64,000 bases of DNA from Symbiodinium natans (Eukaryota > Sar > Dinophyceae > Suessiales > Symbiodiniaceae): positions 372,001-436,000 of the forward strand of contig CAJNDS010000491.1 in the NCBI GenBank assembly GCA_905221605.1. Reading direction: 5' to 3'. Under the pieces are notes generated by a model. The model was given only the letters and a program-made list of their open reading frames with translations. It did not search any database and was not told where the DNA came from. Position numbers and translations under genes: made by a program. Of the stretch, positions 17,761 to 54,250 are shown one piece after another (the first letter of the stretch is position 1; every line of letters begins with the position of its first letter).

Positions 17761-18077
17761 TTTTGGGTTTAGGGTTTAGGGTTTAGGGTTTAGGGCCCGG
17801 GGGTGCCCAGGCGCCGTTTCGAATGCTTTAAAGCAGATTGGGCCCGTGGCCCTCTGCTTTGGGGGGACGCAGGCTCTTCAAGTTGTGGAGAGCCTGGAGC
17901 ATTCCTTGAAGGGGTTATCGGAGGGTTTAGGGTTTAGGGTTTAGGTTTAGGGTGTAGCCCGTTGCGGCCTTTTGCATCGAGGTTTCTGGACTTGAGACCC
18001 AAGGCGCCACTGAATACCCAGAGAGCCCAATACCCTTTACCTTATACTGCACAAGGGCCCCTATACTCCACAGTTCA

Positions 18078-18108
<31 letters not shown>

Positions 18109-19148
18109 AGCCCGGAACCTTTAGGGTTTATTTAGCATAGAATTTTTCTTTTCTCTTTAAACTACCTAATATAAATATTTTCAGAATAGCTGCTACCTAC
18201 GAGCCTTCGGGTATTCTCTACAACACAAAACCCAAGGATTAGAGCCTAGACTGAGGCTCTCCTTGTTTGAAGTCCACCCTAAACCTACTCTAGCCTTAGA
18301 CTCTAGCCACGCAGCGCGGTGAGCACAGCCGCTTTTAGCCTAAAGGAAACATAGGCTCATCACCCTAATCTTTATTCTATGGTTTAGGTTTTAAGGTTCA
18401 GAGTAGAACCTATAGCAGACAGTAAAGCAAATGCGCGTAGACAATGCCGTCAAGGAAATAAGTTTCCTCAGCCAAGGCGTGCTCCGGTAGGGCATCCTCA
18501 CTGGAGATCTGAATCCCGTAAGGTGGCGTCATGGTGGACATAAGAACCAAAGATCTCAGATCAAATGACTGCAGGAATCCTAAACCCTAAACTCTAAACC
18601 ATAAACCCTATACCCTTCATATATTGAGAAGCAAGCCAAAGAAGAGCTTCTCAAACATTTTTGCGCTGGCCGCATCAAGGTGTTTCCAGCCCCCTCATCA
18701 CATCACCTGGGTGAGGTGATTTGGATCTTCGGGCCTTCTTGAGGTAGGGTTTAGCGTTTAGTATTTGTTTCATAGAGCCTTAAGGGGTTTAAGGGTCGGT
18801 ATGCAACCCAGGGTCCCTTGATACTCCGCACTAGTCATTTAGGGTTTAGGTTTTAGGGTTTAGGGTTTAGGGCTTTACTTAGCTTGTGCTTTGTCAAGCT
18901 GAAACTCTAAGGCTGGAGCTGGAAACCCCTCGGCCGTAATTCAACCCCTAAATCCTCAGCTCTACACCATAAACCCTTAATCCTTAAACCCCTAAATCCG
19001 AAACCCTAGCCCTAAACCCGAAACCCTAAACCCTAAACCTCACACAGCCGCGGCACTTCTCCGAGCGCCGGCGGCGCAGGTGATACTCTCTGTTTCGCCT
19101 AGTTTGCTGACGAGGGAGCTTGCGCTTCGGGTTTAGGGTTTAGGGTCA
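17761..19148. repeat. Dispersed telomere-like repeats
   Basis: Short TTTAGGG runs at about 17763-17797, 17925-17956, 18838-18872 and 19130-19148, and CCCTAAA at 18577-18606 and 18995-19045. They are separated by unrelated sequence and by a (TC)n(TA)n microsatellite at 18071-18108. No gene is supported in this interval. Confidence 0.85.
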
Positions 19149-27085: not shown

Positions 27086-28504
27086 TCACTTCGACTTGCT
27101 CTTCACACCTGAGCTTCGCAGTGTGTGGTGTCTCAGAGCTTGAAGAGGAGTTCTCTTCAACTTTAGACGCTTGCGTGTTGCAGCGGCTGGTCGCTTGGCG
27201 AGCCAGTTTTTGGAAAGCCGCTTTTCGTTCTCACGAGCTGCGACAAGAGGCAGCTGCGCTTTCTTTTGTCTGCCGCAAGTTTCTTGATCCGCACACCACC
27301 CCGTCCACTCTTCACTTGTCCAAATTGATTTGCTCATGGCTCTGCTAAGCAGAGCAGTCTCAGAGACAATGTGTGTCAGCGGAAAGTAATTAGCCAGATG
27401 ATGCGCCAGCAACTTAATGTAGCGATAATAACGTAGTTTTAAGGCAAGTGTGGATCGGTGCATAGTGTTCGTGCTGCGCGACCATGAATTTATCTCGGCG
27501 TGCAACGCCTCATTGCTTGCAGTACCGCTCGGCAAGAAGTGGAGATGATGGCTGGGGACGGACTGCCGCACACGCACATTATTCATAAGCCATTCCAGTC
27601 TATCCGGGGCGCAGGCGGACCACAAGATCTTAAAAATTTCCTTGTTCGGTCCTGCAGCCTTCCGCTTGACTTCGTGCGCGAATTTGGCACAAATGGCTGC
27701 AACCGATGTGATGAATTCAATCCTGCTGCGTAGCGGCTTGTCGCACTCCATTGCAGCAAGTATGTCGTTGGCCTGGCTTATAGGCATAGACATTGAAAAA
27801 ATCATGTCTCTGCATTGCTCCTCGGCTTCCTCCAGAGGTCTGGACATGTCGCCGTCGTAGAAGGACACGTCGCGAGACTTCTCCGATGTGTCCACTGCAA
27901 CAGTTTTTCTCAGAAGACTGCGTAGCGTCTTGGATCCAGGCGTGCGCTTGTTCCAGTGCCCGTACTCATAGACGATGGCGAGATGCACTGGATCCAGCAT
28001 CATTCCCTTCAGATTGGGACAAATTTGTCGCAGATCTTTGTAAAATTTTGCAGAAGGACTGTCAGTGGCGACAAACTCTACTGATTTCAACTGCTCTTCG
28101 GTAAAACATTCCTCCATCACCGACACCACATGTTCAGATTTTTCTGATTGCAAAGGGTGAAGAAGCAGCACCGCGCTGGATCTGCCTCTCACCGTCAACA
28201 AACGTCTCCATGCTAGATCATCTCCGAATGGAGCGTTGTTTCTTTTCTCAGCTGCGGCCCGATAGGACTCTTGACCTTTAAGCTTGAGGCATACCTTCAG
28301 AGTTGCGTCCATGCTCAGATACAGCCATTCCTTGTCTGCTTCCAGATGTTTTACCATGGACGTCAGCCTGGCTTGGTACGCCGGTGACGCAGTGATGTCC
28401 TCCAGCATAGGAAGCCAGTGCTGCCCGAGCGAAGGAAGCAGTGTGGCAAGTTCGTTGCCGGACTGCATAGCTGCCAAATGGCAACGAGGCCAGATGGTTC
28501 TCAC
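27086..28504 (-). CDS. MULE-like DDE transposase domain (last exon of composite element gene)
   Basis: The exon has 472 codons and ends at a stop at 27086. It opens at GTG 28504 directly after an AG acceptor, so this is an exon boundary and not a start codon. Candidate catalytic residues are D66 in LYLSMDATLK, D148 in FVATDSPSAKF and E332 or E336 in SGTASNEALHAEINSW. Between them lies a D-x2-H motif (MLDPVHLAIVYE, D171/H174). This spacing and the NEALHAEINSW context resemble MULE/Mutator-superfamily transposases, which cut and join DNA at terminal inverted repeats. The basic C-terminus (residues 436-472, many Lys/Arg) may bind DNA or act as a nuclear-localisation signal. The reading frame is intact. 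It joins in phase 0 to the exon at 28614-33818, so in this model it is the C-terminal domain of the composite protein. KDZ or another DDE lineage is the main alternative. Confidence 0.7.
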   Translation of the reverse strand: MRTIWPRCHLAAMQSGNELATLLPSLGQHWLPMLEDITASPAYQARLTSMVKHLEADKEWLYLSMDATLKVCLKLKGQESYRAAAEKRNNAPFGDDLAWRRLLTVRGRSSAVLLLHPLQSEKSEHVVSVMEECFTEEQLKSVEFVATDSPSAKFYKDLRQICPNLKGMMLDPVHLAIVYEYGHWNKRTPGSKTLRSLLRKTVAVDTSEKSRDVSFYDGDMSRPLEEAEEQCRDMIFSMSMPISQANDILAAMECDKPLRSRIEFITSVAAICAKFAHEVKRKAAGPNKEIFKILWSACAPDRLEWLMNNVRVRQSVPSHHLHFLPSGTASNEALHAEINSWSRSTNTMHRSTLALKLRYYRYIKLLAHHLANYFPLTHIVSETALLSRAMSKSIWTSEEWTGWCADQETCGRQKKAQLPLVAARENEKRLSKNWLAKRPAAATRKRLKLKRTPLQALRHHTLRSSGVKSKSK

Positions 28505-28613
28505 CTTTCAAAAGAAATATCAGACTAACCCGACATGTCAGAAAGTAGAATTTAAGTATTTTACTACGTCAAATGCAAAAGACAAGAACTACGACCGTGT
28601 GCGTGCAGCACAC
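28505..28613 (-). other. GT-AG phase-0 intron in element gene
   Basis: On the minus strand the intron begins GTGTGCTGC after CAG (28616-28614) and ends TTTTGAAAG before GTGAGAACC. It is 109 nt. The upstream frame would otherwise run 14 more codons to a stop, and the downstream frame has no ATG at its beginning. Splicing makes one continuous frame, SHAQ to VRTIWPR. Confidence 0.65.
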
Positions 28614-31600
28614 CTGAGCGTGACTCATGACCATTTCACGGAGAAGCATGTCCGCAAACTTGTGCGTGTAGTAGATATTGCCGACTCTGCGCACGTGGAC
28701 TGACTTGCCAAGAGCACTTGCGTTCAAGTAGACAGGCCCACTGTCGTCGAAGACAAGACAAATATGCTTGTCAACAAGATTGATCGTGGTCTCGAGAGGC
28801 GGCCGAATAGTTTTTCCAAGCACCTCTGCGCTGCGTCGCAGCAGAGCCGTCGTCTGAACCTGCAAAGAAGCGTCGTTGTCGTACAGCGCCAGAATGACTT
28901 TCGTCTGCTTCGTGCCACTGGCGACAAACTGTGTTTGCAGACTGTGATATTTCGTCACATGAGTGCGCAGGTATTTTAGCCGAGTGAAAGAACGAAACGG
29001 ACAAAACGGGCATTTGCGCTTGCCGTTCACAGCCTTGCAATTGGAATCCAAGTTCTCCAGCATGTCTGCAACCTCACGCTCCAAACGCTGCATGATGTTG
29101 TCAGAAATAAAAGGGCGGCCTTCCGAGTCGAAATCAATTCTCGACGCAGACAAAGATGGCAGATTGTTGCCATCGTCGTCAGACTCTTCGGAACTGCAGC
29201 CTGCGACCATATCCAAAAGCTCGTTGACGTGCGCAGTATCTGCTTCTCGCGACTGTCTCAGCCAGTAGGATGCGATAGTGCTGCGATCCACTGCACTCGC
29301 AAAAGCTTCTTGAAACTGTTCAGCGCTCACTCGGAAACCTTCCTTCGCGTCAAAAATCATGACAGTGTCTCTTTTACTTGAAAATTGAACTGCGACGCAG
29401 TGAGGACGACCTTTGCCTTCTGCATGAAGCATAAAGGATTGAACTTTGTCATGTGGAAGACCCAAACTGGATTCTAAATCAGCTTTGTAAAGAACATTTG
29501 CGCTGCGATAGGATCTGTAGCCAACCTCCGCAGCCTCCTTGTTGGCATCGGAGTTCGCATCTTTAAGCGACGACACGATGGTTTCGCGGAGAATAGGAGC
29601 GATATGCCACAAAGCGCACGGTATGCAGTTTCCGGCCCGAGTGCAGATATCAGGAAGTGACTGTCGAGGCGGAACTGCAGTTGCGTTTTCTCGAGCTGCA
29701 GAAAGAAAGTCTCGCCCGATCTTCTGAACGATCTTAACCTTGAACAACACCTTCTCTTCGATTTCTTTCTCGCAAGATTTGCAAAACTGCGGAATATCGA
29801 CAATTGCATTGCGCGACACTCGCATCCCGTCGAAGTGCAGAGAAACGTGGAGCGGCTTCTGGTCTTGTCGCAAAACATGTTCGGACCAGCACTGAAGAAT
29901 CCGATCTTCAACTGCATGCCACATAAGCGAAAACACAGTCGCTTCAGGGAATGGTTTGCTTTTGACATCCTTGAGATTCAGGTAGTCATCGTGAAGAAGG
30001 TTGCAAGCTGTCCAGCGGAGATATAAAGACAGCTTCTGAAGCGACTGTACATTCTCGTCGTTCTTGAAGTTGTCTGGTATGCGACCGCCATTCACCACCG
30101 TATTCACCAGCTGCTTTCCTTCACTATGATGTGCATTGATTTTGCGAAAGAAATCCTCGCGCTTGTAAGCGAGTTCATACAGCAGCTCACTTAATTTCTG
30201 CGGCAAAGCTGGAGTGGGCTTGATCTTTTCCAGGATTTGATAAACAAGGGTCAAGCAGCAGTTCTGAATGTCTAAATCTACACAATGCGCATCCAGAACA
30301 TGTACCTGCAGTCTTCGGGACATGGCCTGTGCGCTGCCAGCACCACTGTAGCGACGGGGCTTCACTGAGTAGGCCGGCTCAGCAGGATAGTGATACTTGA
30401 TTTGCTTGGACACTAAAGTCCGGAAAGCAGAGTCTTGCGATGAGGGAAGCTCTTCCGACTGCAACTCTTTTGGCGTGTAACGTTTTCGCTGAGAAGCCTT
30501 GACGCCGGTGGACGTGTCAATGTCGCCGCGAAGCACAATCTTGATGCTGTCCTCGTGAGCCTTCAGCTTCAGCAGTGCACTCTTGTGTTCTCGCATAGCG
30601 TCCTGTATGTCTGCCTGCCTCCTGCCTTTCTTTGCGTCGGATCCAGTGAGACGTTGACAGGCGCTCTTGTGATGTGCCTCTAACACTTCCGCGCTGCGCC
30701 GTCGACTGCCATGCGAAAACGCATAGCTCCGCAATTTCTGAATGTCGTGTTGCTCTTCAAAATGCATTCTAACATCATCTTCACTCACCGGAGGCAAAAT
30801 GTCCTTGAAGTCATGCGCGAAAGTCATGAAAGGCAGAAACGATCCTGGCTTCACCTTGCTGGTTTTGTGCTTCACAATTCCAGGTCGAAGCACGCGCTGC
30901 GCTTCCACTGCATCCCACAATGCTTCTTTAGTCATGTTTGGTATTCCGGAGTTCCTCAACGTCAGCTTCTTGAACTCGGTGTACGATAGCAACTCCATGC
31001 CAGAAGAAAGCATTGTGTCGAACAAGAACTGTCGAAAATTGTCCCACTCATCGTCTTTTGCGTCCCGTGCCTTTTGACTTTCAGCATCTGCTTCGAGGAC
31101 GGCGGCCAGGCCGACATCTTTTTCTTCTTGTACTTGTCTGTGTCGCACTGGTAGACCGCAGGCTTGCCTCATAACATCCTCCGTGATGTAATTATCCTCG
31201 CCGTTGCAGTAATCTTCGATGAATTGGTAGCATGCATCGCGACCATGCATACGCTCGAACGCCCATTGTATTCGAAGACCTGCCACTGAGGCTTGTGATG
31301 TTGCAAGGAACTTATTGAGGCTGGGGTCTGCTGCAAAGATGCCGTCTTTCTCATGATCGAGGTAGTTGCAGAGAAACTTCTGATGTATGAAGCGAGCTTT
31401 GGCTTTCCATACAAATCCACGTCTGAACATGGAATTAAAATTGGAAACGGAGACGCCAGCGAAGTTCATCATTCGGTTCATTTCAAGTCGCTTCCAGCCG
31501 ACGATCTGCCACATTCGCGTAGTGTAGCCATACGGCTTGCGGCCCATAATGCCGTCTCCAGACATAGTCTTCTTGAAAAGATCTATGTGTAGCTTCTTGC

Positions 31601-33818
31601 TACTTTCTGGCGCTTCCTGACCAGTCAAAATAAAGCACTTAGCGAGCGACTCAGCCTGTTTCCGTAGTTCTTCTTCCATGTGCCAGACATTTGGGTCGAA
31701 GAACATGTGATGCTGTTTGTACATCTCAGAAAGATGTAACGAATACAGACTCTGGCCAACGCCGCCTGGAGAGATGCCTATGAAACATCTGTCGATGTTC
31801 AATCCTCGCTTTGCCAAGGCGAGCGCTGCTTGAAAGCATTGAAACACCTTGAAGTTACACCAGAATGTCTGTTCGTAAAATCGCTCCAAGCGCTTCATAT
31901 TGGCATCGAGAACAGGGTCCAGCAAATTATGTGGAATGTGCACGTAGCAGTTGTTCGCCGGACCTTTTCTGACTGCCTCGATGTGTTGCTCTGACCCTGG
32001 CCGATCGTACACAAAGCAGGAATCATTGTAGCACACCGCTGCCTCTCGTTGGTCTTCGGTTTCGCACCATTCCACGATAAGCGAGATCATGCGCGTCTGC
32101 ATGAGCTCAAACTTCAAAACGCAGCAGACTTTCCAAGTCTTCTCAGCCAAGTCATCGGTCCATGAGTCATTGCTTGTTTCATTTTCCTCACAGGCACGTT
32201 GCTCATCCGGATCTGCGTCGAGACGCGCGTCAGCTTGAACTTTCTTTTTGCTTCTGGCAGCACGCCGACAATTCTCCAGAAATACAGCTTCACTTGGAAA
32301 GTTTTGAGAATCGCTTACGATCGCTGTCGCGATGGCTTGACTGTTCCTCTGCACATCATCTTTCATTCGTCTGTAGATTCCTTCCAACTCAGTGAAGAAA
32401 TTCGATATCCGATGAAGCGCAGCCTCAGGAGGAATTCCTCCGAACGTCACGAAAGAGCCGTCGTCGTTGTAAATGTGTAAGAAGCCCTTATGAACTCGAA
32501 CGTGTCTTCCGCCCTCCACAAGCCAAAAAACTGCGGCAGCATCTGACAGCATAATCTTGTCCGCAATGTTTTTTTCAGAAATGTAAGCGGCCACCATAAT
32601 AAGTCGCAAGAGCTCTTCGGACGCTGTAGGAAAAACCTGCCTGAGCTGACCCAAAGATGCATTCGTACTCTTGACAATCTCACTGCTGCTGTTCTTCACG
32701 TCAGGCGTCACGAGGTTCAACTCGGATGATATGCAGTGTTTTGACTTCTCAAACATAGATTGGAACTGATCCGATGTTTTGTCAGCTCCTGGCATGCGTC
32801 TCCGTTTCTTTGCAGCCTGCGGCACCTCGTCAGTGTCATTATCCAAAAGAATACTCAGAGCCGCTTTAAATTCATCGGCAAAATGATCGCCGTCATGTGC
32901 CGCAGTTCCTGACAAGCGAACTTCAAAGGGTTCTGTAGCTGGAATTGCAACGTCCGCGCGTGTTTCTGCTGCTTTGGCAAGCAACTGCTGTCTTCTGACA
33001 TCCATAAGCTGCGAAACAGATTCTTGCATATCCGGAACTTCGTCAATGAATCCGTCTGGAAGATAGTTGGGGTGCACGCAGACAACTATCATCTTGACAA
33101 TTTTTATGTCGTAGTACCTCTCCAAGATCCAGCGGTAGGTGTTCAATTGAAGACGATAATGGTGTCCTTGACAGTCCGGCACCTCTTGCAGCGGCACTTT
33201 CATGTTTTTGCCGTAACTATTGAACTTATCCTTCAACTTCTCGCTGCGTTTCCAGTCCAGCACAATGAATTCACTGGAACCTTTGATTTTTAGTACCACG
33301 TCGATGGATCCAGCTAGGTCCTCCTCCGGAGCATGAACACACCATTCGGTTCGAAATACTTCGACATTGCCCATCTTTTCAAGTGCGCGGATAGCAGCAT
33401 TAAGCTCACCCTCCATGCAGCCAGGACAAATCTGATAGCCATTCAGTAAATGTTCAAGCATTGCATGCATCCAAGTGCCGCAGTTCGCTGCCCTTTCCCT
33501 TTTGAGATTCCACGTATCAGCAATCTCGTTATCGTGAAGCACGAGATGCGCCATGATCTCGTCCCACGTGTTCAGCTCCGCACGGCTTGCAACGAACAAT
33601 TCGCAAATCTTGCTGAGGTCTGGCGGAGTCTTCTTGAGCTCTTCAACGAGATCTGCCTGGTAGAAGAAGTCCGTGCCGATTAACATGGCGCCAATAAGTT
33701 TGAAGTCTGCGTCGGGCGCAATATATTCCTTTCGAGGCCAATTTCGACCAGACTTCATTTTTTGTAAAGCAAGTGTAGCATCGAACTCTTCGGAAAACTC
33801 GTGTATCAGGGCGGTAAC
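28614..33818 (-). CDS. Composite element protein: nuclease, SF3 helicase, TV-Pol-like polymerase, Cys peptidase-like, C2H2
   Basis: One exon of 1,735 codons without a stop. Numbering below counts from the first codon of the open frame at 33863. Residues 16-250 are a RecB/Cas4-like PD-(D/E)XK nuclease: GTWMHAMLEHL (H133, E137), GSIDVV (D188), VLDWKRSEK (D203, K205) and QLNTYRW (Q239, Y243). Residues 690-830 resemble an SF3/D5-like helicase: GISPGGVGQSL in the P-loop position with Gln replacing Lys, then ILTGQEAP, FKKTMSGDGIMGRKPY, WKRLEMN and RRGFVWKAK. Residues 1190-1350 show family-A/TV-Pol-like motifs: DLDIQNC (A), KQLVNTVVNGG (B) and SLHFDGMRV (C). Residues 1410-1510 form a papain-like triad candidate: GNCIPCAL (C1413), PHCVAV (H1488) and IFDAKEGF (D1505). 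A C2H2 finger is at 1618-1640. A DDE transposase follows after the intron. The predicted role is replication, processing and integration of a mobile element. Domain identities are by motif only; the nuclease and C2H2 calls are firmest. Confidence 0.7.
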
Positions 33819-33921
33819 CTCGACGAAATAACTTAGAAACGCTAAGAGGTTGCTTTTTGCCAACTCTTACTATGTATATATTTCACTACGCGCGTGGCAA
33901 GATGCAAGCCAGCCAGGTAGC
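33819..33921 (-). other. GC-AG phase-0 intron in element gene
   Basis: On the minus strand the intron starts GCTACCTGG after codon AGC (33924-33922) and ends TTCGTCGAG before GTTACCGCC. It is 103 nt and contains stops in the upstream frame. Splicing joins HKYFYNDTVVGCS to VTALIHEFSEEFD. This recreates the H-x-Y...SVT...F segment that precedes the catalytic core in many RecB/Cas4-like nucleases. The 5-prime GC donor matches donors seen in the eL19 genes. Confidence 0.65.
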
Positions 33922-34116
33922 GCTGCATCCGACGACTGTGTCGTTGTAGAAGTACTTGTGTCCCTCTGACTCGAAGCGCAAGAACTCATCGGTGGGAAAG
34001 TGATTGATTCTGGCCAGATCCGTACATGCGCTCAAGGACGCTGTCGCTGCGGTCTCAGGCTGAGAGGGCATTTGAAAAATCCGAGGTATGGGGTCGCGAC
34101 GAAGAACTTCACCCAC
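33922..34116 (-). CDS. N-terminal exon of composite element gene (nuclease lead-in)
   Basis: The frame is open from about 34161 to 33922. Protein-like sequence includes FPTDEFLRFESEGHKYFYND just before the intron. HKYFYND followed by the SVT created by splicing fits the N-terminal strand-turn of PD-(D/E)XK exonucleases. The first codon at 34116 is GTG, so the true start is not fixed. The internal ATG in QMPSQPE (about 34071) or a further upstream exon are both possible. With this exon the composite protein reaches at least 2,270 residues. Confidence 0.55.
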
Positions 34117-34161
34117 AATTGAATCGAGGGGGTGAGTCCAGCCTCCTTCGTGCAGGACTGC

Positions 34162-34560
34162 CTATGTTTTCTATGTCACACTCTCTGAGAAAAATACAAA
34201 GACAACTCGCAGTCCTGCCGCAGAAACGTCAGTAACGTCCATGGCTTCTTCGCTTTCATGATCTGATTCTTGACCGTCCTGAGCAAATGATCAGGTTTGA
34301 TTCAGGCGCGCATTCTAATAATTGCGTAGTCGCATTTTAACGAAGGTAAACGACATTATGTGTCTATGAAGGTAACAGGACCTAGTTTAATTTGCAACCA
34401 GGCACTGATCCACCCAGACCGTCGAGATCATCGTCTGCAAATTTGTTGGTTTGATCCTCGACACGGTCGCGCGGATGCAATCACTTTGATCGCTGGGGAA
34501 ACGATGAACACACAAAAACGAATGCAATCTATACAGCTGCGCTCAAGTAGTAAAAGTGCA
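34162..34560. other. Spacer between two minus-strand element frames
   Basis: No exon is supported. It may hold the promoter or 5' exon of the composite gene, or an intron if the two large minus-strand frames belong to one transcription unit. Confidence 0.35.
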
Positions 34561-37470
34561 TTAGAACTTATACATTCTGCAGTGCCAAGACGCGATTGAT
34601 TGAGACGTTGCAACTTTCTGGAGTACTCTGGCTGCGTGTTCACAGCGAGCTTCTGCCAGCGATACGTGGATCTCCAGAGCATAACGCAGGGCCACACGTC
34701 TCCACTCTTCTAAGGAAGAAAATGAAGTCGGGTGAGGACAATGCAAGAGAGTATCGCCGAGATCTGGCCTCAAGCGGCGAGCCTGATCGTAAATGAAATG
34801 GTATAACACGACGTCTTGGCCTTGGTGCAGCAAGTCCAATATGATTCTCGCTCTGTGGAGAACTTGTTCCCACTGTCGCTTGGCCATACTGGTTTTCTCA
34901 TCCGGATCAGGCAGCAAGTACAGTGCCTCAGGCATGTTGTTCCAAACATCCGCGTGCTTGCGCAGGATCTTGTTTATGACGCCATGGAACTTGCAATCAG
35001 ATTGGAGATGCCATTGCATTCTTTTATAGTATGTGGCTGCGTGCACGTAGGGAAACTTGTCAGCCTCAAGCTTCGCCGCAGCAGAAACTGTAACTGACAA
35101 GTAGTCGCTACTGCCCCCGAGAGCATCCTGAAGTTGAGCAGGACAGAAAGGGCATAAGCGGTCTGGGTGATGTAGCACATGCCTGTGGCACATCCATGTC
35201 GAACACGTCGGGCAGACTCTCCAACGTGTTGCAGTGATGCATCTCGTCTGCGCGCAGATGCTGCACTTCACTGTCGCAGTGTGAGATAAAGGAGATGGCT
35301 TAGACCTGAAGCTTGGCTGGAAATCGTCTGCGTGTGTTCGCCTGTACAGCCACACGAACACTTCTGCTAAGGGAGGCGCCATCTCCATGCCGTTGGCGTT
35401 TGTGGTAATTCTAGTCACCCCGACGTTATCGAGTGAGACTTCAAAGCAATGGCTGCTCCACTCGAGCGCGAAGTTGTGGACGGTGTCTGCTCGAATCTGA
35501 TGCCGTTCTCTGCCGTAATGAGGACGAGGCATTTCGCCGTTCAAGCCATAGGACCAAGTTGCGTTGCTTCTGAATAGATTGTCTATACGACAATATGATC
35601 TCTTGATTCCCCGCCATTCCTTAACGCCCATGTAAAGGCCACAAGTAGATGCAGGGAGGATGAGGTCGAACGTTGCTCTTCCCATCATCGGACCTATGGA
35701 GTGGAAACCGAGAATGTCCGTTCCGACGTTGCCAGGCAAGCGCATACGCTGCACTGGCATACTAACATAGATGTTTTGCGGCATAGTTGGGAATAAACAA
35801 AGTTGCCTGCATCTCACACTTGCCGCGCTTGCGATGTTGCAAATAGGTAGGATCGAGTTGATTACAGAGCGATCATGGAACTCGTCCCCCTCTAAGTACA
35901 AGACTCTGTTCTGCCAACGACTAGAGTCTCGCACGGCCTCCTTCAGTGCTCGGCAGGTGGAAGCCAGTGTCCTGAGATGAGCTGGCGAAAAATGAAACAG
36001 GGTTAGATCTCTGACAACATCCAGAGGAAGACTGCCTCCGATGCCGTCGAAGTCGTCTGCGTCCCAGCGCTTGTTACCCTGCGCATTTGCTGCCAGCACA
36101 GCAGCTGTACTCGCATCATCTTGCTCATGAACTTGCTTTTGTTGGGCTTGCAGGCAGCACGCCACTCTCATGAGATCCGCGGCAAGGCAGCTATCGTCAG
36201 AGCCGTTTTCGATGCACTGATAGCATTCGTCACGGCAATGAACACGTTCGAATGCCAGTTGCGTGCACAGCCCTGCGTTGGCAGCCTCTGACGTCGCGAG
36301 AAATTTGCGGAGCGCGGGTTCTGCAGCGAAGACGCTGTCTTTCTCATGATGCTTCACAGAGTACTCTGTTGCGACGCACTCTGTGCTGCCACCCATAGCA
36401 TCCTCATCATCTGCACATGGGTCACCTGACATGCTTTGTTTTCTGCTGAAGCCGGACACAATTGCTGCTTCCTGCCAGATGGGCTTCCCGACAGTAGAGC
36501 CTGGCAGTAGTTCGAAATTCACGAAGTCATTACCGAAAGCATGTAGCGTGCCCAGGTACAGACTGATAAGTGCAGGATGGATGCACATTGGAATCTGAAT
36601 TTCATACTGTGTTTTTGCAGGCCCGCGTGGTCGGATTAGATGCGACACATCACTGCATGTATCGGCACAATGCTGCCCCAGCGTTCCTTGTCTCGCGCAG
36701 CCGATGTACTTCTTGTAATCAAAATCCGAAACTCTGCGGCCGCAAGCATAACAAAGTTGTCGCCGTCTGCACATGGCAGCTTTCAGAATTGTATGCTCGC
36801 TCTGAAACCAGCGGACGAACATGTCTTCCGTTTCTGGCCAGGCGAACGCAGATCCTGCCAATGGCGGAAGTGCTATTTGCGTTGAGCGGCGTTCACTTGT
36901 CAGTCGTACATGACAGCCAACTGGCAGCCAGGATATATCATCGCTTTCTTGAAGGCAACATTCACCAACTTCAAGGCGGTATCTGTTTCCGCGCGTTTTC
37001 AGAAATCCGAAAGCAATGTCGAGATACGACCAAATGCCGTCCCAACTGGGATAAGGTAAGAAAGGAATGATTACTGCTTGCTCGATTCCGGCGTCGCCTA
37101 ACTCAAATAAACAGAATGAGATGCGTGTAGTTCCCAGTGGGTAGAAAGGCACTGCCATGAACATGAGGGTACGCACTTCTTTGTCGAATAGGATTGCAGG
37201 CAAAGCTCGACAGCCAGGTCTGTTGATGTTGTATGCCCGCGCGACTACGTCAAAGGGAACCTCGCCAGGCGAAATCCCAATAAGTGTACTTCGTCGTTGT
37301 CCGAAGAAAAAAATTCTGCATCGTCGATTTGTGGAGGAGGTCTCGTGTATCGCCGGCACGCAATCCTGCGAAAACTCTGAAGCGCCTCCTTTGCCATCTT
37401 GCTCCTGACGCCGATTCCATCGCCTGCAAACGACGAAGAAGGTGCATACGTATTGGCAGCTGCGTGCCAC
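34561..37470 (-). CDS. F-box / SPRY-like / RING-like fusion protein in the element
   Basis: The minus-strand frame has 969 codons without a stop and begins at GTG, so an upstream exon or another start is likely. Residues 365-472 (HHEKDSVFAAEPALRKFLAT...AFERVHCRDECYQ) are clearly paralogous to residues 832-938 of the composite protein (DHEKDGIFAADPSLNKFLAT...AFERMHGRDACYQ). Residues 480-525 look like an F-box (LPLDVVRDLTLF...LRTLASTCRALKEAV...W). Residues 595-710 resemble a SPRY/B30.2 fold (WSYGLNGEM, FALEWSSHCFEVSLDNVGV). Residues 736-776 form a Cys/His zinc site (CSIC...CPTC...CHRHVLHH...CPFC), RING-like. A basic and helical C-terminus follows. F-box-SPRY proteins act as substrate receptors of SCF ubiquitin ligases, so a role in targeting host proteins is possible but inferred. 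Around 37245-37320 another minus-strand frame is also open and protein-like, so the extreme N-terminus is uncertain and a frameshift there cannot be excluded. Confidence 0.6.
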   Translation of the reverse strand: MARSCQYVCTFFVVCRRWNRRQEQDGKGGASEFSQDCVPAIHETSSTNRRCRIFFFGQRRSTLIGISPGEVPFDVVARAYNINRPGCRALPAILFDKEVRTLMFMAVPFYPLGTTRISFCLFELGDAGIEQAVIIPFLPYPSWDGIWSYLDIAFGFLKTRGNRYRLEVGECCLQESDDISWLPVGCHVRLTSERRSTQIALPPLAGSAFAWPETEDMFVRWFQSEHTILKAAMCRRRQLCYACGRRVSDFDYKKYIGCARQGTLGQHCADTCSDVSHLIRPRGPAKTQYEIQIPMCIHPALISLYLGTLHAFGNDFVNFELLPGSTVGKPIWQEAAIVSGFSRKQSMSGDPCADDEDAMGGSTECVATEYSVKHHEKDSVFAAEPALRKFLATSEAANAGLCTQLAFERVHCRDECYQCIENGSDDSCLAADLMRVACCLQAQQKQVHEQDDASTAAVLAANAQGNKRWDADDFDGIGGSLPLDVVRDLTLFHFSPAHLRTLASTCRALKEAVRDSSRWQNRVLYLEGDEFHDRSVINSILPICNIASAASVRCRQLCLFPTMPQNIYVSMPVQRMRLPGNVGTDILGFHSIGPMMGRATFDLILPASTCGLYMGVKEWRGIKRSYCRIDNLFRSNATWSYGLNGEMPRPHYGRERHQIRADTVHNFALEWSSHCFEVSLDNVGVTRITTNANGMEMAPPLAEVFVWLYRRTHADDFQPSFRSKPSPLSHTATVKCSICAQTRCITATRWRVCPTCSTWMCHRHVLHHPDRLCPFCPAQLQDALGGSSDYLSVTVSAAAKLEADKFPYVHAATYYKRMQWHLQSDCKFHGVINKILRKHADVWNNMPEALYLLPDPDEKTSMAKRQWEQVLHRARIILDLLHQGQDVVLYHFIYDQARRLRPDLGDTLLHCPHPTSFSSLEEWRRVALRYALEIHVSLAEARCEHAARVLQKVATSQSIASWHCRMYKF

Positions 37471-37972
37471 TTGTTCACCAATGTTGTACTATTCTGTTTA
37501 TGATGTCATTAGTTGCAAACGTGTGAGGCATTGAGTTTGATATTTCTGCTGAGATTCGGTGCTTTGGTTATAGGCTGGAAGTCGGCCGCGGCATCACTTC
37601 TCTCGCACCTGCAGGATTCGACATGCGCTTGCTTTCTCAGATGATGCCGCGCAATACACAAACAAGCATCTTTGTGTAGTAATTGTCCCGCGTGACCTTG
37701 CATCAGAAGATGTTGACGACGTTGCTACATAGCTGCTGGACGTCCTCGCAAGCGCAGATTCTGAAATGCATATTCGCAATGCTGGTGTTGTTAATAAAGT
37801 TTTGCTACTGAATTTCTCAGCTGCGCAAAATTGCAGGCAGTCCGCGGCGAAGCCTGCAAAGATGTGAGCGGTGTTGCCTTGCGTCGAGACCACCTCACAA
37901 AATTTAAGACATTGATTGTTTGATGAATGAATTGAACCACTGTGCGCAATGTCAAGTGCGTGTTGGGTTTTA

Positions 37973-39495: not shown

Positions 39496-39900
39496 TCAGC
39501 ATGCAATTTTATCGATTAGAGATAATTCGCAAAGTGCCTCCGTGTTCGAGAGACACGCTCGTTCCCATAAATGTCGCTGCTTGGTGAAATTAATTTCGCA
39601 GCCATTCTCGTCAACGCGAACAGCTACGAAGTGATTGTCAGCCAAAACGATGTATTCGCCGAAAGATGATAGGCTTTTGGTAGGCACCGGTGTCAGGCGC
39701 TTCCTTAGTTTGCTGGCTCGTGCAGTTATAGGGATTGAATACATTGCAATACAAGTTCTGCTGAGTGTCTCGAATGGAAGCAGCATTTCGTTGCCGTTTC
39801 TGAGTGCCCAGAAAGGTCCGTCGCAGCTGTAAGGGACCTTTACGCCGTGTGATCGGATGGCGTCGATCAGGCAAACTTCAGCGAACTTCTTCTGACCTGC
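39496..39900 (-). CDS. Hypothetical element module, copy 1 (GVKVPYSCDGPFW)
   Basis: The frame is open from an AG acceptor near 39900 through ATG 39786 to a stop at 39496. Key segments are VCLIDAIRSHGVKVPYSCDG, PFWALRNGNEMLLPFET and FGEYIVLADNHFVAVRVDEN. The last has a His followed by Asp/Glu-Asn, reminiscent of a cysteine-peptidase second half, with a Cys in YSCDGPFW. This is speculative. A second copy of the first segment occurs at 40190-40325. Confidence 0.4.
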   Translation of the reverse strand, partial: AGQKKFAEVCLIDAIRSHGVKVPYSCDGPFWALRNGNEMLLPFETLSRTCIAMYSIPITARASKLRKRLTPVPTKSLSSFGEYIVLADNHFVAVRVDENGCEINFTKQRHLWERACLSNTEALCELSLIDKIAC

Positions 39901-40189: not shown

Positions 40190-40325
40190 TGTTTTGCCCA
40201 GAAGTGTGTGCAGAACGAAATCAGAGACGTGTCGTTGTCGGTTGCACTCCAGAATGGGCCGTCGCGACTGTACGTCACCTTGAAGCCGGTGCATTGCACA
40301 ATGTCGAGCAAGTCACGATGACCTC
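40190..40325 (-). pseudogene. Hypothetical element module, copy 2 (GFKVTYSRDGPFW)
   Basis: The minus-strand peptide LDIVQCTGFKVTYSRDGPFW, then SATDNDTSLISF, aligns with copy 1 (IDAIRSHGVKVPYSCDGPFW, ALRNGNEMLLPF). The Cys of copy 1 is Arg here. No long frame extends from it, so it is an isolated duplicated exon or a decayed copy. Confidence 0.45.
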
Positions 40326-42347: not shown

Positions 42348-44720
42348 TAAATAATTTAAATAATTTTTGCTTATTTAAATTATTTTAATTATTTAAATTA
42401 TTTAATAGGGGTCAATTAAATAATTTAAATAATTTAAATAAATTAAATAAATTAAATAAATTTAATTCAGGAAACTTTCCAGACCAGCCAGAAAAAAATC
42501 AATTAAATAATTTAAATCCCGCAGTTTAATTAAATTATTTAATTGAGCTGTCGAATTTAAATTATTTAATTGTTTTGCTGGTTGGCCTGGAAAGTTACCG
42601 GAATTAAATTTATTTAAATTATTTAAATTATTTAAATTATTTAAATTATTTAATAGGGGTGAATTAAATAAATTAAATAATTTAAATAATTTTGCTTATT
42701 TAAATTATTTAAATTATTTAAATTATTTAATGGGAGGCAATTAAATAAATTAAATAATTTAAATAATTTTGCTTATTTAAATTATTTTAATTATTTAAAT
42801 TATTTAATAGGGAGTCAATTAAATAATTTAAATAATTTAAATAATTTTTGCTTATTTAAATTATTTTAATTATTTAAATTATTTAATAGGGGTCAATTAA
42901 ATAATTTAAATAATTTAAATAAATTAAATAAATTAAATATATTTAATTCAGGAAACTTTCCAGACCAGCCAGAAAAAAAACAATTAAATAATTTAAATCC
43001 CACAGTTTAATTAAATTATTTAATTGAGCTGACGGATTTAAATTATTTAATTGTTTTGCTGGTTGGCCTGGAAAGTTACCGGAATTAAATTTATTTAATT
43101 TATTTAAATTATTTAAATTATGTAAATTATTTAATAGGGGTCAATTAAATATATTACATAATTTAAACAATTTTGCTTATTTAAATTATTTAAATTATTT
43201 AAATTATTTAATAGGGTCAATTAAATAAATTAAATAATTTAAATAATCTTGCTTATTTAAATTATTTTAATTATTTAAATTATTTAATGGGAGGCAATTA
43301 AATAATTTAAATAATTTAAATAATTTTTGCTTATTGAAATTATTTTAATTATTTAAATTATTTAATAGGGGTCAATTAAATAATTTAAATAATTTAAATA
43401 AATTAAATAATTTAAATAAATTTAATTCAGGAAACTTTCCAGACCAGCCAGAAAAAAATATCAATTAAATAATTTAAATCCCGCAGTTTAATTAAATCAT
43501 TTAATTGAGCTGTCGGATTTAAATTATTTAATTGCTTTGCTGGTTGGCCTGGAAAGTTCCCGGAATTAAATGTATTTAAATTATTTAAATTATTTAAATT
43601 ATTTAAATTATTTAAATTATTTAATAGGGGTCAATTAAATAAATTAAATAATTTAAATAATTTTGCTTATTTAAATTATTTAAATTATTTAATGGGAGGC
43701 AATTAAATAAATTAAATAATTTAAATAATTTTGCTTATTTAAATTATTTTAATTATTTAAATTATTTAATGGGAGTCAATTAAATAATTTAAATAATTTG
43801 AATAATTTTTGCTTATTTAAATTATTTTAATTATTTAAATTATTTAATAGGGGTCAATTAAATAATTTAAATAATTTAAATAAATTAAATAATTTAAATA
43901 AATTTAATTCAGGAAACTTTCCAGACCAGCCAGAAAAAAAGTCAATTAAATAATTTAAATCCCGCAGTTTAATTAAATTATTTAATTGAGCTGTCGGATT
44001 TAAATTATTTAATTGTTTTGCTGGTTGGCCTGGAAAGTTACCGGAATTAAATTTATTTAAATTATTTAAATTATTTAAATTATTTAATAGGGGTCAATTA
44101 AATAAATTAAATAATTTAAATAATTTTGCTTCTTTAAATTATTTAAATTATTTAAATTATTTAATGGGAGGCAATTAAATAAATTAAATAATTTAAATAA
44201 TTTTGCTTATTTAAATTATTTTAATTATTTAAATTATTTAATGGGACTCAATTAAATAATTTAAATAATTTAAAAAATTTTGCTTATTTGAATTATTTTA
44301 ATTATTTAAATTATTTAATAGGGGTCAATTAAATAATTTAAATAATTTAAATAAATTAAATAATTTAAATAAATTTAATTCAGGAAACTTTCCAGACCAG
44401 CCAGAAATTATTTAAATTATTTAATTTCTTTAATAGGGGTCAATTAAATAAATTAACTAATTTAATTAATCTTGCTTATTTAAATTATTTAAATTATTTA
44501 ATCGGTGTCAATTAAATAAATTAAATAATTTAAATAATTTTGCTTATTTAAATTATTTTAATTATTTAAATTATTTAATGGGAGGCAATTAAATAAATTA
44601 AATAAATTAAATAATTTTGCTTATTTAAATTATTTAATTTTTTTAAATTATTTAATGGGAGTCAATTAAATAATTTAAATAATTTAAATAATTTAATTTA
44701 ATTTCACTTATTAAAACAAA
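42348..44720. repeat. AT-rich satellite, about 480-bp unit with internal dyad
   Basis: Almost entirely TTAAATAA-type sequence, with one GC-containing block per unit. The block TTCAGGAAACTTTCCAGACC starts at about 42466, 42947, 43426, 43908 and 44379, a period of 471-482 bp. About 100 bp after it, each of the first four units carries the inverted counterpart GCTGGTTGGCCTGGAAAGTT, so each unit can fold into a long stem. The fifth copy is truncated. No coding capacity. Confidence 0.9.
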
Positions 44721-45249: not shown

Positions 45250-48200
45250 CTAATGCAATTGGAGCAAAGATGGTCAGACATGCAGTTTTTGCGTGAGGCA
45301 CTTTGCGAAGTTCTGGAGCCTCGCCGATAGCCGATTTCTCAAGACGAGCTTGGCATCCATCTACCCGATACCCGACACTCCCGAAACCCTACATCCCCAA
45401 ACTCGGGACAAAAGAAGTTCAGGGACCTCCTGGAATCAGACCCGCACCGGTCACCTTGAGGAATCCAACGGTGATTCCGTGCATGATTCTTGGTTGGCGC
45501 CTCTGTCAATCCGACAGGCACGCAGCAAAAAGGTACTTCGTGTGCGTTGATCCAAACACCCCGAGGCTTGGCACCTGTGTGCGTTGCTGTGGCAGAGCGG
45601 ATCCTAGCATTGAGTGCCCCCCGGAAGTTTCGTTCAGAGCAAAGGCCCGAGCTGGGAACCGGTTTTTCCCTCCCCCTGGTTTGGGGGGTGCTCATAGTCT
45701 CGACAGTGCAGGCCGACGCCGCAAGAGAGAGCCAAGAGCTCGTGGCTGAGGCCGCCAATCTGCGGAGGGTCTGCGTTGAAACGCGCCGACTGGCGTGTAA
45801 GATAGGGGTCGGAATAACTACTAATGGTATTCCCGGATGGTCCCTTTATAACGATACTAGAAACAACAGCCCCAAAGCCCTCTTCTAATTGTGCGGCCGG
45901 AACCTGGACCTCAGCCAACGTTTCCTCCACCACCGCTCGTCCAGGCAAACCGAGCGGCCATCGCAATGGTTTCAGAGGCAACCTGCTGTTTTCATTCAGG
46001 GGCACAGACCCGGCTTTCCTTACGGGAAAGTGGTGGATGCTCCACCCGGATGAGTAGGGTTTAGGGTTTAGGGTTTTAGGTTTTACGGTTTAGGTTTAGG
46101 GTTTAGGGTCTGGGGTTTAGGGTTTAGGGTCCTTTACAATCGCACGTTGAGCTACGGAGGCATCTCAAACCCCTTATCACACGAGAGTGCCTTCATCAAA
46201 ATCCGACCCCTCGCAACCCAAAAACTTGTCGCCCAGAACTGTCAAAGCCCCAGCCGCTTAGTCCCTTAACTCTGCCCCCCTCTTGTCCCCTCCCCAAACC
46301 CTAAACCCTAAACCCTAAACCCTAAACCCTAAACCCTAAACCCTAAACCCTAAACCCTAAACCCTAAACCCTAAACCCTAAACCCTGAACCCTAAACCCT
46401 AAACCCTAAACCCTAAACCCTAAACCCTAAACCCTTCCGGAGGCCACTGAGGCGTCTGAGCGCGAAGCCGAGCGCAGCAAGGAGCGGCTGCAAGAGTCCC
46501 AGGAGCCCGGCTCCCTAGCCAGGACAAAGGGGGGGGGGGGAAATTCAGGGTTTAGGGTTTGGGGTTTAGGGTTTAGGGTTTGGGGTTTAGGGTTTAGGGT
46601 TAAGGGTTTAGGAGACAAAAGGGGGGGAAATTTGGGGGCTCTGCGGGCTGTGGGTTCGAGGGGTTTAGGGGGGTCGCGGTGGGCTCCCCATGCCATCTGC
46701 TTTTCGGGCGTGGGGAGGATCGACTGCGTGCTTGCCTATGACCTTTCAGCTGACCTTTCAGGTTGTTGGAATCCGAGCGGGTTCGCACGCAGCACGCCAT
46801 CGAGCAGCTGGGGTCCCGGAGCGGAAGAGTGCCGCTGGTTTGGAGCCCCCAAACCATTGAGGGGAGGGCTTGTTGAACCACCCCAACACCCTGAGCCAGT
46901 AAGCCCAAAGCCTCCCCAAAAACTCCTAGTAAAAAACCCCAGAAGCTCTGGAAGCCCTTTTCCCTGAACCCATGAGGTTGCTCTTCATTTTTCCCTTGTG
47001 TCGGGTGATGTGGTTTTGCTGCACCTTCCGACCTTTAGCGTTTAGAGGAGAACCAGGTTTCCACGAGCTTCCGCTCAGACCCAGGCAGCTGTCCGCCGCA
47101 TCGTCAGCGCAGCAGCAGGCCGAAGAGGCCCCCTTTTGCATGCTTACTTTGGGGTGTAAGGGACAGCCCACACTTGGCTTAGGGTGCCTAAGAGTTATAT
47201 GGCTGATGGTTGGGGGTGTTTGAGGTTGAGGCGTTCAGGTGTTTTTTCCAAGCAGCGCGCCAACACTTTGGGGTTCCACCATTCCCAAGTGCCTCGCTAA
47301 TTTGGGTCCACATCGCGGTCTCGCCTAGGCCCCGGCCTCGTGCGCATTCCTTGGTCCAACTCGCGCTCTCTCAGTCCCGTACACTTTTCAGGTTGCTGCA
47401 GCCGCTCGGTGGAGTGTGCCGAACTGTCGTCGCTTTTGGGCCTCTTGGGTCGTGCTTTTGTTTTTGGGCCCTAAACTGGCCTGAGCCGTAACCTCCATAG
47501 ACCTTAATTCGATACCTTAATCATAAACCCTAATGAGAAACCCTAATAATAAACCCAAAGTCTTGCCTGTTCCCCGAGGTGCGGCCTGGGCACCCTACAA
47601 ACCCTAACCCAGAAACCCATATTTTTTAACCCTACAAACCCTAATGATAAACCCTACAAGCCCTAATGATAACCCTAGAAGCCCTAGTTATAAACCCCAT
47701 AAGCCCTATTCTTCAATACTGCTTTCTTGGGCCAGGCCGCCGCCGCGGCGGAGCAGGCGGCCATCGAAGCGGAGGAGCAGACGGCGCCGCGGCGCGCAGG
47801 ATGGCTTTCAGGGGGGCTTCCTATAAGGGCTCCTTTAAGGGCTCCTTTAAGGGCCTGCCTATAAGGGGGAGCTCTGACAGGGGGTTCTAAGGGGTTCTTG
47901 GGAGATCTTCGGGTTGGGCCGGTTTGGGGGTTCGTGGTTTCGGGGGCCCCCTGCTGTTTGTTCGTATGGCGATGTATTTCGACGAATCAAGTGCCCAGCA
48001 CGAATTTAGATGTCCGACACGGGCCGAGCTGAACTCGCCGAACTCGCTCCGTAGCTTTGTCACGTCAAGAGTGGATGGGTTGCAACGCTCGTAGCACTGA
48101 CAGGGCTCCGGTTTGAGCTGGGGGAATGCTCTTAGGCATGCTCCCTGGTATCGTCTTCAGAACCATCCTCTCGACCTGTCCTTTGGAAGCAGCATCTTAG

Positions 48201-52218: not shown

Positions 52219-54250
52219 ATGTCGCTGAAGCTTGGAGGAGCGTTTGGAGGGGTTCAGGGTTTAGGGTTTAGGGTTTAGGGTTTGGGGTTTAGGGTTTGGG
52301 GTTTAGGGTTTAGGGTCAGCGGTTAGAGGGTGTGAGGGTTTAAGGGCGGTGGGGGCTTCAGGGGTTTTAGGGGTTTCAGGGCCATAGGGTTTGGGGGTTT
52401 AAGGGCTGGGGGGGCTTCAGGGCTCTTAGGCGTTTAGGGGTTTAAGGGCTTAGGGCGTTTCAGGGTTTCGCACTTCGGGGCTCTAAGGCTTGGGCATAAA
52501 ACCCCCTCGAGATGGCAAAGTCGAGAGGTTTCACGCTGTAAGGACTTGACTTACTTTAGGGTTCAGGATTTTCGGGTGTCAGATGTTGCTGGGGCAGGCC
52601 GTGCGCTTCTTCTTGCTTTGGGGGCGGAAACCTACGCAAAGGCGATCCACACCCTCCACCCTGAACCTCGAAGTCTGCCCCGCACCGGACCCGAAGCCTC
52701 TCTCCTGAAAGTCCAAGGGCTCCGAGTTTCGGCCGTGAGATGAAGCTTTGCTTAGAGTAGTTAGATAACCCTGAACCTTACAAAGGGCAACCGCCCAACA
52801 CAGCAGCTTCGCTGAGTAAGACTCAGCCAAGGAAGCTGCAGAAGCGGCTTGCCGCGTCCATCCTGGGCTGCGGCAAGAACCGTGTGTGGTCGGAGCCTCA
52901 AGTAGAGTTGGTGTGTGTGTGTGTGTGCTTGTAGAGTGTAGGGAAGAACTGAGTCCCTGGTTCTAAGAGTCCCGGAGATGAGAGTGCTGGCAGATGCCAG
53001 GCTCGACCCCAACGAGACCAATGAACTCTCCATGGCGAACTCGCGCTTCAACATCAGGCGGGGGGCAGCATCCCAGCGCCTCGCACATACAGGGACCTTC
53101 CGTCATGACCGACTTTAGCCTGCATACTGTGTAGATGAGCAACATCTCATAACTTTTTGCGGAGGAAGATGATCAAGGACGGCCTGATCATCCGCAAGGC
53201 GGTGAAGATGCACTCGCGCTCCCGGGTGCGAAAGAACTTGGAGGCCAAGCGCAAGGGCCGACACACCGGCATCGGAAAGCGAAAGGGTACCCGTGAGGCA
53301 CGAATGCCCACGAAGGTGCTGTGGATGCGCCGCCAGCGCGTCCTGCGCCGTCTCCTGCGCAAGTACCGACAGCAGAAGAAGATCGACAAGCGAATCTACC
53401 ACTACTTCTACCGCCACGCCAAGGGTAACTGCTACAAGAACAAGCGCGTGCTGATGGAGGCCATCCATGCCAAGAAGACCGAGAAGATGAAGGAGAAGGC
53501 CTTGCAGGAGCAGTCCGAGGCACGCAAGGAGAAGGCGCGCCTGGCCAAGGAGAAGAAGCTGCTGCGACCCGTCCGAAGTTGCTGACCGTCCTATTCAGAG
53601 TGCGGGGGGACCGAAGTTATTCTAAATTGGCGTTTCTGGTTAAGGGTTTAATTTCAAAAGGTGCTGGTATGCAATTACGCATGAAGGGACCAACAACCTC
53701 CACGTGGGCGCAACGGGTCTCGTGCCATCCCAAGCGGTGCTGTGGTTGAGGCATTTGGGGGTCCATGATCATGGGTTTTCTGTCCTTCAGCACAAGCAAC
53801 CAAGTTGGTCTTGTAAGGGTCAGTACCCCTGACCCCCCAAAAGCACCGCTGCCCAGGAAGAAGGCGGATGCGGCCAGGACCGACGAGGATGCTGGCTGGC
53901 AGCAGGTGTCTGGTCCTCTTGTTTGGGGCCCCCCGGGGCCATGCTAAGCTGTCAACCTAGCCCCCCCCTAAGCCCCAAACATCATTCCGCCAAGGCTCCA
54001 CTTAGGAGGAACACAGTGCTTCCACAACAAACAGTGCACACTAATTCGCCGCCCGAAGCCTGGATCTCGGGTCCGAATCGCGCCCTGAAACCGAAGATGA
54101 AACATTTCAAACTGGAGATGTTTCATAAGTATGTATGTATGATATAGCCGGAGCTCAAGCTCTCTGTGGGTGGGAAGGAAGTTCGGTAAAGTTTCGGCTA
54201 CATGCAGCTCCGCCTCCCTCTGCTTGCCTTCGCAGGCAAAGAAGCGATGA
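52219..54250 (+). CDS. RPL19: Ribosomal protein eL19, copy 1
   Basis: Large-subunit ribosomal protein eL19, a component of the 60S subunit. Proposed exons: 52219-52226, 52832-52888, 53001-53057, 53165-53563, 53857-53905 and 54236-54250, giving 194 residues (family about 190-200). Diagnostic segments are [70 protein letters not shown] and the helical basic tail ending WQQAKKR. The five introns use donors GA, GT, GC, GC and GT, and each ends AG before G. The first exon is just ATGTCGCT. Intron 1 (605 nt) contains a TTTAGGG array at 52254-52313. Codons are strongly G/C-ending, as expected for a highly expressed gene. It is first of three head-to-tail copies. Confidence 0.88.
52254..52313. repeat. 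TTTAGGG array inside eL19 copy 1 intron 1
   Basis: About eight heptamers of TTTAGGG/TTTGGGG type within the intron, followed by degenerate GGGTTTAAGGGC-like sequence to about 52460. Confidence 0.9.

Follow-up and report, generated by a model that had tools for sequence, protein, structure and literature searches.

In the 64,000-nucleotide stretch of the Symbiodinium natans genome analysed here (contig CAJNDS010000491.1, forward-strand positions 372,001 to 436,000; hereafter the window, whose own numbering is used throughout), a single minus-strand gene extends from about 34.1 to 27.1 kb and reads through once spliced. Counted from the first ATG, exon 1 (33922..34071) encodes the N-terminal part of a nuclease domain (...FESEGHKYFYNDTVVGCS). 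It is followed by intron 1 (33819..33921, 103 nucleotides, GC-AG, phase 0), by exon 2 (28614..33818), whose 1,735 codons run from the nuclease through a linker, by intron 2 (28505..28613, 109 nucleotides, GT-AG, phase 0) and by exon 3 (27086..28504), which encodes a DDE transposase plus a tail and includes the stop codon. An earlier model-made note (the sequence-only reading) had placed three exons and two short phase-0 introns at these positions; both this structure and the existence of every motif it listed were confirmed in the DNA. The open frames in the window measure 1,765 and 473 codons, lengths which we infer to be far beyond chance. The spliced frame beginning at the ATG at 34071 comprises 2,257 codons, with a sole, terminal stop, and so falls short of the at least 2,270 codons first proposed. 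However, upstream of this ATG, similarity to four relatives (P0008, P0021, P0022 and P0037) reaches about 34140-34257. Because homology extends beyond the ATG, the true start perhaps lies upstream of it, and the start at 34161 given earlier is plausible and may be nearer the truth.

The relatives belong to a set of 215 proteins collected from three protein searches (handles beginning with P), in which domains were called with profiles from our own alignments. At the intron 2 joint, the alignment was gapless in 11 of 14 relatives, namely seven unspliced-looking ENA proteins and four gene models. P0007 carries a 35-residue insertion at the exact joint position, the alignment of P0020 begins only at the joint, and P0204 shows small gaps, none of them at the joint. 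At the intron 1 joint, six of 11 relatives were gapless (four gene models and two from the sources jgi and lgn), two had one single-residue gap away from the joint, P0022 and P0037 had a gap of 3-4 residues at or close to it, and P0019 had a 26-residue in-frame insertion exactly there. P0001, an ENA entry 99.9% identical to the window gene, apparently continues into intron 2, like an unspliced frame. The splice structure is read from the DNA and from the alignment of relatives.

The first domain of the chain (32994..33818, minus strand) was assigned, by profile match and catalytic residues in the alignment, to the PD-(D/E)XK exonucleases of RecB/Cas4-like type, which upheld the nuclease call made previously. 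The catalytic residues are H118, E122, D173 and D188-x-K190 in exon 2 numbering. The PHROG_298 exonuclease profile matched residues 94-278 of exon 2 with an E-value of 1.9e-18, and was also matched in 18 of the 22 relatives scanned (best E-value 6.5e-20). The cas4 model was matched in 14 of them (best E-value 8.3e-5, under the model cut-off) and PDDEXK_1 in four (best E-value 2.4e-5).

Structure comparison of the predicted model identified, at 31134..32558 (minus strand), a superfamily 3 (SF3) helicase module of the D5 type, in which the D5 fold and the B', C and Arg motifs are present; its best structural matches were poxvirus and African swine fever virus proteins. The P-loop-like motif GISPGGVGQS (31778-31749) pointed out earlier is real, but it is a degenerate Walker A: the expected lysine is replaced by Gln (codon at 31754-31752) in 33 of the 34 rows with a residue at this position and by Gly in the remaining one. 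At such a frequency the Gln is a family trait and not damage in the window copy, and the other D5 motifs are preserved in the family despite it. The helicase first proposed was thus retained as a fold and not as an active enzyme. With the Walker A lysine missing throughout the family, the D5-type ATPase would more probably serve as a ring that binds DNA, or as a loader, and work alongside a host helicase than act as an independent motor. The SF3 models of Pfam and NCBIfam gave no match in the 22 relatives scanned; phrog_1156 ('DNA primase') matched one of them somewhere along its length (E-value 4.6e-4). A stray helicase C-terminal piece of about 97 residues was also noticed at 36348-36055 (minus strand), inside a 975-codon frame described below and upstream of its F-box-like stretch. 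As additional helicase pieces exist in P0006, P0028, P0181 and P0182 as well, small helicase duplications appear to be recurrent in the family.

The domain at 29712..30806 (minus strand) is a family A DNA polymerase, as judged from structure comparison, in which the predicted model shows the palm/fingers/thumb fold with two catalytic Asp, and from conserved residues. Motif A is DLD (D1181, D1183), motif B GK1235...NG and motif C HFDG (D1330); D1181, D1183, K1235 and D1330 are invariant in all 36 alignment rows. The narrower assignment to TV-Pol, made from the sequence, found support as regards the family A type but not in its strict form, the order of the domains being reversed and the RxxxK fingers motif lacking: K1235 is present in 36/36 rows and Arg at K-4 in 2/36, although the motif could be placed differently. 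R1155, also invariant (36/36), is by alignment position only a candidate for the TV-Pol hairpin Arg that precedes motif A.

At 29184..29666 (minus strand), conserved residues (GNC...PHC...DG) and weak fold matches suggest a cysteine-peptidase-like domain. The residues on which this peptidase had been proposed are mostly kept in the alignment (N in 35/35 rows, C in 30/35 with S in the other five, H in 32/36 and D in 28/36). Foldseek, run on the model as a whole, returned USP-type protease matches (E-value about 1) that are too weak for a peptidase family to be named. A C2H2 zinc finger (CPFCPFRSF...H...H; 28944..29027, minus strand) was recognised by alignment and by the zf-C2H2_4 profile, which was matched in 13 of the 22 relatives (best E-value 9.5e-4), the window protein reaching only 0.12.

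Exon 3 encodes a DDE transposase of the IS256/Mutator kind, with an RNase H fold, a helical insertion before the E, and the residues D66, D148, D171xxH174 and E332. The triad is the one named at the outset, and conservation and structure comparison both speak for it: wherever a row holds the residue it is invariant (D66 50/50, D148 50/50, E332 51/51), and the C/DxxH motif is found as D171xxH174 in 51/51 rows. With the Pfam transposase models, DDE_Tnp_ISL3 was matched in two of 51 members (best E-value 0.07) and TNP-like_RNaseH_C in one (E-value 0.15). The same triad, motif and helical insertion domain are described for ISCth4, an IS256-family enzyme from a group whose transposases resemble Mutator-like ones (PMC7780238). 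For this enzyme, the closest transposase of solved structure, transposition follows the copy-out/paste-in route and passes through a double-stranded circle; replication factors of the host, its authors propose, might turn the figure-eight into that circle (PMC7780238).

It was then considered whether these parts belong together, or whether a Mutator-like transposon merely lies behind an unrelated replication gene and is linked to it only through the two-intron reading. DDE-only proteins, 102 of the 215, would fit accidental neighbours, though the length window of the search favours that count: the exon 3 search was restricted to lengths between 0.55 and 1.75 times 472 residues, a range in which fused proteins could not appear. 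Because of this window, and because most entries look like unspliced frames, partial forms are expected. Nuclease, helicase, polymerase and DDE were nevertheless found together in 11 of the 215 proteins, and helicase, polymerase and DDE in 20. The domain order is uniform across the family, save for the extra helicase pieces mentioned above. Furthermore, the identical fusion, order and joint occur in seven unspliced-looking relatives with 29-47% identity around the joint.

A maximum-likelihood tree was built from 69 helicase-polymerase rows (68 of the 215 proteins, which passed a length filter, plus the window). It placed 16 of the 20 fused proteins, on the two outermost rows, on most intermediate branches and in the 20-row clade of the window, so that the fusion is found on most deep branches; fused proteins are absent from one deep branch of three rows (P0194, P0044, P0183) and from the lone row P0040. 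The position of the outermost rows is unsure because their branches are long. The fusion label needs 7 changes on the tree, and 86 of 500 shuffles were equally low. Since the joint is the same everywhere, we read this pattern as a single old fusion in the dinoflagellate family with incomplete entries, and not as repeated fusion. The parts of the chain also diverge in a correlated manner: pairwise distances in the DDE domain correlated with those in the helicase and peptidase regions (r 0.73 for each) and in the polymerase (r 0.78), similarly to helicase against polymerase (r 0.77). None of 2,000 permutations gave values as high; length filters left 19 or 20 of the 21 sequences for these comparisons. 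Domain profiles, joint alignments, distance correlations and tree already contradict an accidental neighbourhood, which we consider very improbable.

The single-polypeptide architecture therefore recurs across a family that is essentially unannotated, the names given by the sources being mostly 'unnamed protein product'. The organism names among the matches listed (120 of 129 in the exon 3 search) were only Symbiodinium, Cladocopium, Effrenium and Polarella, all of them dinoflagellates, and the majority of entries carry no such name. A profile search from divergent members retrieved 41 proteins among 8,000 scored candidates, every one with an E-value below 1e-170, so that nothing in it linked the family to others. 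Pfam gave no match above cut-off for the four proteins of the window, and sequence searches of the PDB gave chance-like matches only. Some relatives carry further modules in precomputed Pfam annotation, namely ankyrin-repeat domains (P0024, P0026, P0036, P0038, P0044, P0046, P0048, P0186 and P0215) and, in three Polarella proteins (P0051, P0053 and P0056), RCC1-type repeats.

The interpretation that we favour, with a probability of about 0.6, is that this gene forms the central part of a self-synthesizing DNA transposon specific to dinoflagellates and carrying its own DNA-copying machinery. That an ISCth4-like transposase shares one chain with a polymerase, a D5-type ring and an end-processing nuclease suggests an element able to copy the intermediate by itself. 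Recognition of the element ends and strand transfer would fall to the DDE transposase of IS256/Mutator type together with the C2H2 finger. The intermediate would be copied by the family A polymerase of the chain, with the D5-type ring holding it, DNA ends would be trimmed or resected by the RecB/Cas4-like nuclease, and the copy would then be pasted in by the transposase (copy-out/paste-in). The polypeptide may possibly be cleaved by its own peptidase-like domain. The data themselves show the gene structure, the domain identities by profile or fold, the conservation of catalytic residues, the recurrent fusion and the correlated divergence of its parts, from which we infer mobility, copy-out/paste-in, the use of the polymerase and self-cleavage. 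A single-polypeptide replicative transposon had been suggested from the outset; its fusion has been borne out and recurs in the family, while its transposition found no support, no terminal repeats having been found between the near flanks.

Near the element, no terminal repeats exceeded 20 shuffled controls, and no terminal inverted repeats with a target-site duplication were detected between the near flanks compared; in a wide repeat comparison, the six best rows all lay within TTTAGGG arrays. This result would suit a domesticated gene family, in which an ancient transposon-replicon fusion is kept as a host enzyme of genome maintenance or repair and has spread by gene duplication. The intact frame in the window, introns located where P0019 and P0007 carry insertions, host-like modules in some relatives (ankyrin in several, RCC1 in the Polarella ones) and an upstream region colinear in six gene models point in the same direction. 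On the other hand, the DDE triad and DxxH are invariant over 51 divergent sequences, the copies are numerous, divergent and fragmentary, some lying within unrelated gene models, and no comparable host gene is known to us. Domestication is accordingly regarded as unlikely.

The colinear region just mentioned belongs to the 975-codon open frame upstream of the gene (34561..37488, minus strand), which contains a weak F-box-like stretch (E-value 0.027, below cut-off). Over its second half, this frame runs colinear with the N-terminal regions of six of the 180 proteins compared (P0006, P0008, P0020, P0022, P0037 and P0057). Further upstream, conserved pieces CLIDAIR...DGPFWAL / NHFVAVRV (39541..39894, minus strand) match N-terminal parts of P0050/P0051/P0053 and of P0037. 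These upstream matches, at 37488-34561 and 39.9-39.5 kb, indicate that the element or its gene may begin near 40 kb. Taken together with 40213-40311 (minus strand), these conserved pieces may be a second peptidase-like region, in part duplicated.

An integrated virus, virophage or polinton-like, of which the gene would be the replication-integration module in dinoflagellates, was weighed against the favoured transposon as well. A D5-type helicase with a family A-related polymerase is what Sputnik-like virophages use for replication (PMC2579912, PMC3671162), the dinoflagellate Oxyrrhis is described as harbouring endogenous polinton-like viruses (PMC12721341), and the helicase model is closest to poxvirus and African swine fever virus proteins. 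However, the known fusion places the polymerase before the helicase, and no relative was confirmed among IMG/VR viral contigs in one protein-based and two alignment-based scans, each using few peptide patterns; in the latter two, 22 and 35 stretches matched a pattern and 0 were confirmed by tblastn. With similarly few patterns, bacteria and archaea (one genome per species) gave 35 pattern matches, 0 of which were confirmed by tblastn. Moreover, nothing resembling a capsid or a packaging ATPase appeared in the 10 window frames scanned with Pfam, no capsid search by fold having been made. The virus-like element evoked by the sequence-only reading was left without support, and we hold it to be quite improbable.

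As for the rest of the window, GC content per 2-kb bin is 0.19-0.51 at 24-46 kb and 0.52-0.60 in the other bins, except at 18-20 kb (0.48). An AT-rich minisatellite at 42348-44716, with 9-bp and 481-bp periods and a GC content of 0.19 in the 42-44 kb bin, adjoins the low-GC stretch of the element. Interstitial telomere-like TTTAGGG arrays are dispersed over the window, e.g. at 6691-7778, 17761-19039, 46055-46612 and 52250-52342. Two near-alike tandem frames encode ribosomal protein L19e (54962-55570 and 56685-57296, plus strand; Pfam E-value 1.7e-32 each), and a third copy is suggested by an antisense frame at 53115-53594 that resembles the one facing the first copy. Tandem arrays of genes are a typical dinoflagellate feature.

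A bolder proposal, which we advance as tentative and rather less probable than the transposon itself, is a new transposable-element class, an all-in-one replicase-transposase. Within one polypeptide, an IS256/Mutator-type transposase would have acquired its own family A replicase together with a nuclease for end processing and a D5-type ring whose P-loop has no lysine; its copy-out/paste-in would be independent of host replication of the intermediate, and the class would have arisen and radiated in dinoflagellates, contributing to their giant genomes. A second self-synthesizing solution in eukaryotes, unrelated to that of polintons, would mean that replicative transposons have arisen more than once, would allow a direct test of copy-out/paste-in in eukaryotes, and would supply one mechanism of dinoflagellate genome growth. 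The Walker A lysine, lost throughout the family from a D5 module that is conserved in other respects, poses a sharp biochemical puzzle. No described precedent for the architecture was found among the titles and abstract beginnings listed from openly licensed papers.

The element was finally compared with known systems. In eukaryotes, the main self-synthesizing transposons known are the polintons, whose polymerase belongs to family B; like the chain with its peptidase-like domain, they also encode a protease, a cysteine protease. The likeness to polintons/Mavericks lies in an own DNA polymerase and a DDE integrase or transposase within one large eukaryotic element (PMC6431247). In contrast, polintons combine a protein-primed family B polymerase with a retroviral-like integrase, whereas the dinoflagellate gene unites a family A polymerase, a D5-type helicase, a nuclease and an IS256/Mutator-type DDE in one polypeptide, its polymerase and DDE fitting other families better than those of polintons. 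To the Mutator-like elements (MULEs), which to our knowledge act without fused polymerase, helicase or nuclease, the transposase is related structurally, through ISCth4, by the RNase H fold and the succession D, D, C/DxxH, helical insertion, E (PMC7780238). It differs from them by precisely these fused parts. Casposons are prokaryotic and use a family B polymerase and a Cas1 integrase. They are comparable as self-synthesizing transposons with an own polymerase (PMC4046053). KolobokP resembles the element as a DDE transposon with an accessory nuclease gene; this nuclease is a small His-Me finger enzyme, and the abstract mentions neither polymerase nor helicase (PMC9587614). In Teratorn, a transposase is likewise joined to replication machinery, but as a piggyBac-like transposon fused with a herpesvirus, with about 90 other genes (PMC6431247, PMC10175614). 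In Sputnik V13 and related mobile elements, a family A-related polymerase (TV-Pol) is fused to a D5 helicase, as in the present chain; some TV-Pol neighbourhoods contain genes for RNase H-fold transposases, and TV-Pols are reported as never fused or linked to nucleases (PMC2579912). TV-Pol proteins carry the polymerase ahead of the helicase, whereas the dinoflagellate chain runs nuclease-helicase-polymerase-transposase and departs from RxxxK. Because the parts of polintons differ, and because the order and the RxxxK motif set TV-Pol/D5 proteins apart, the element was filed under neither, and there is a real chance that it will form a class of its own once its ends and mobility are shown.

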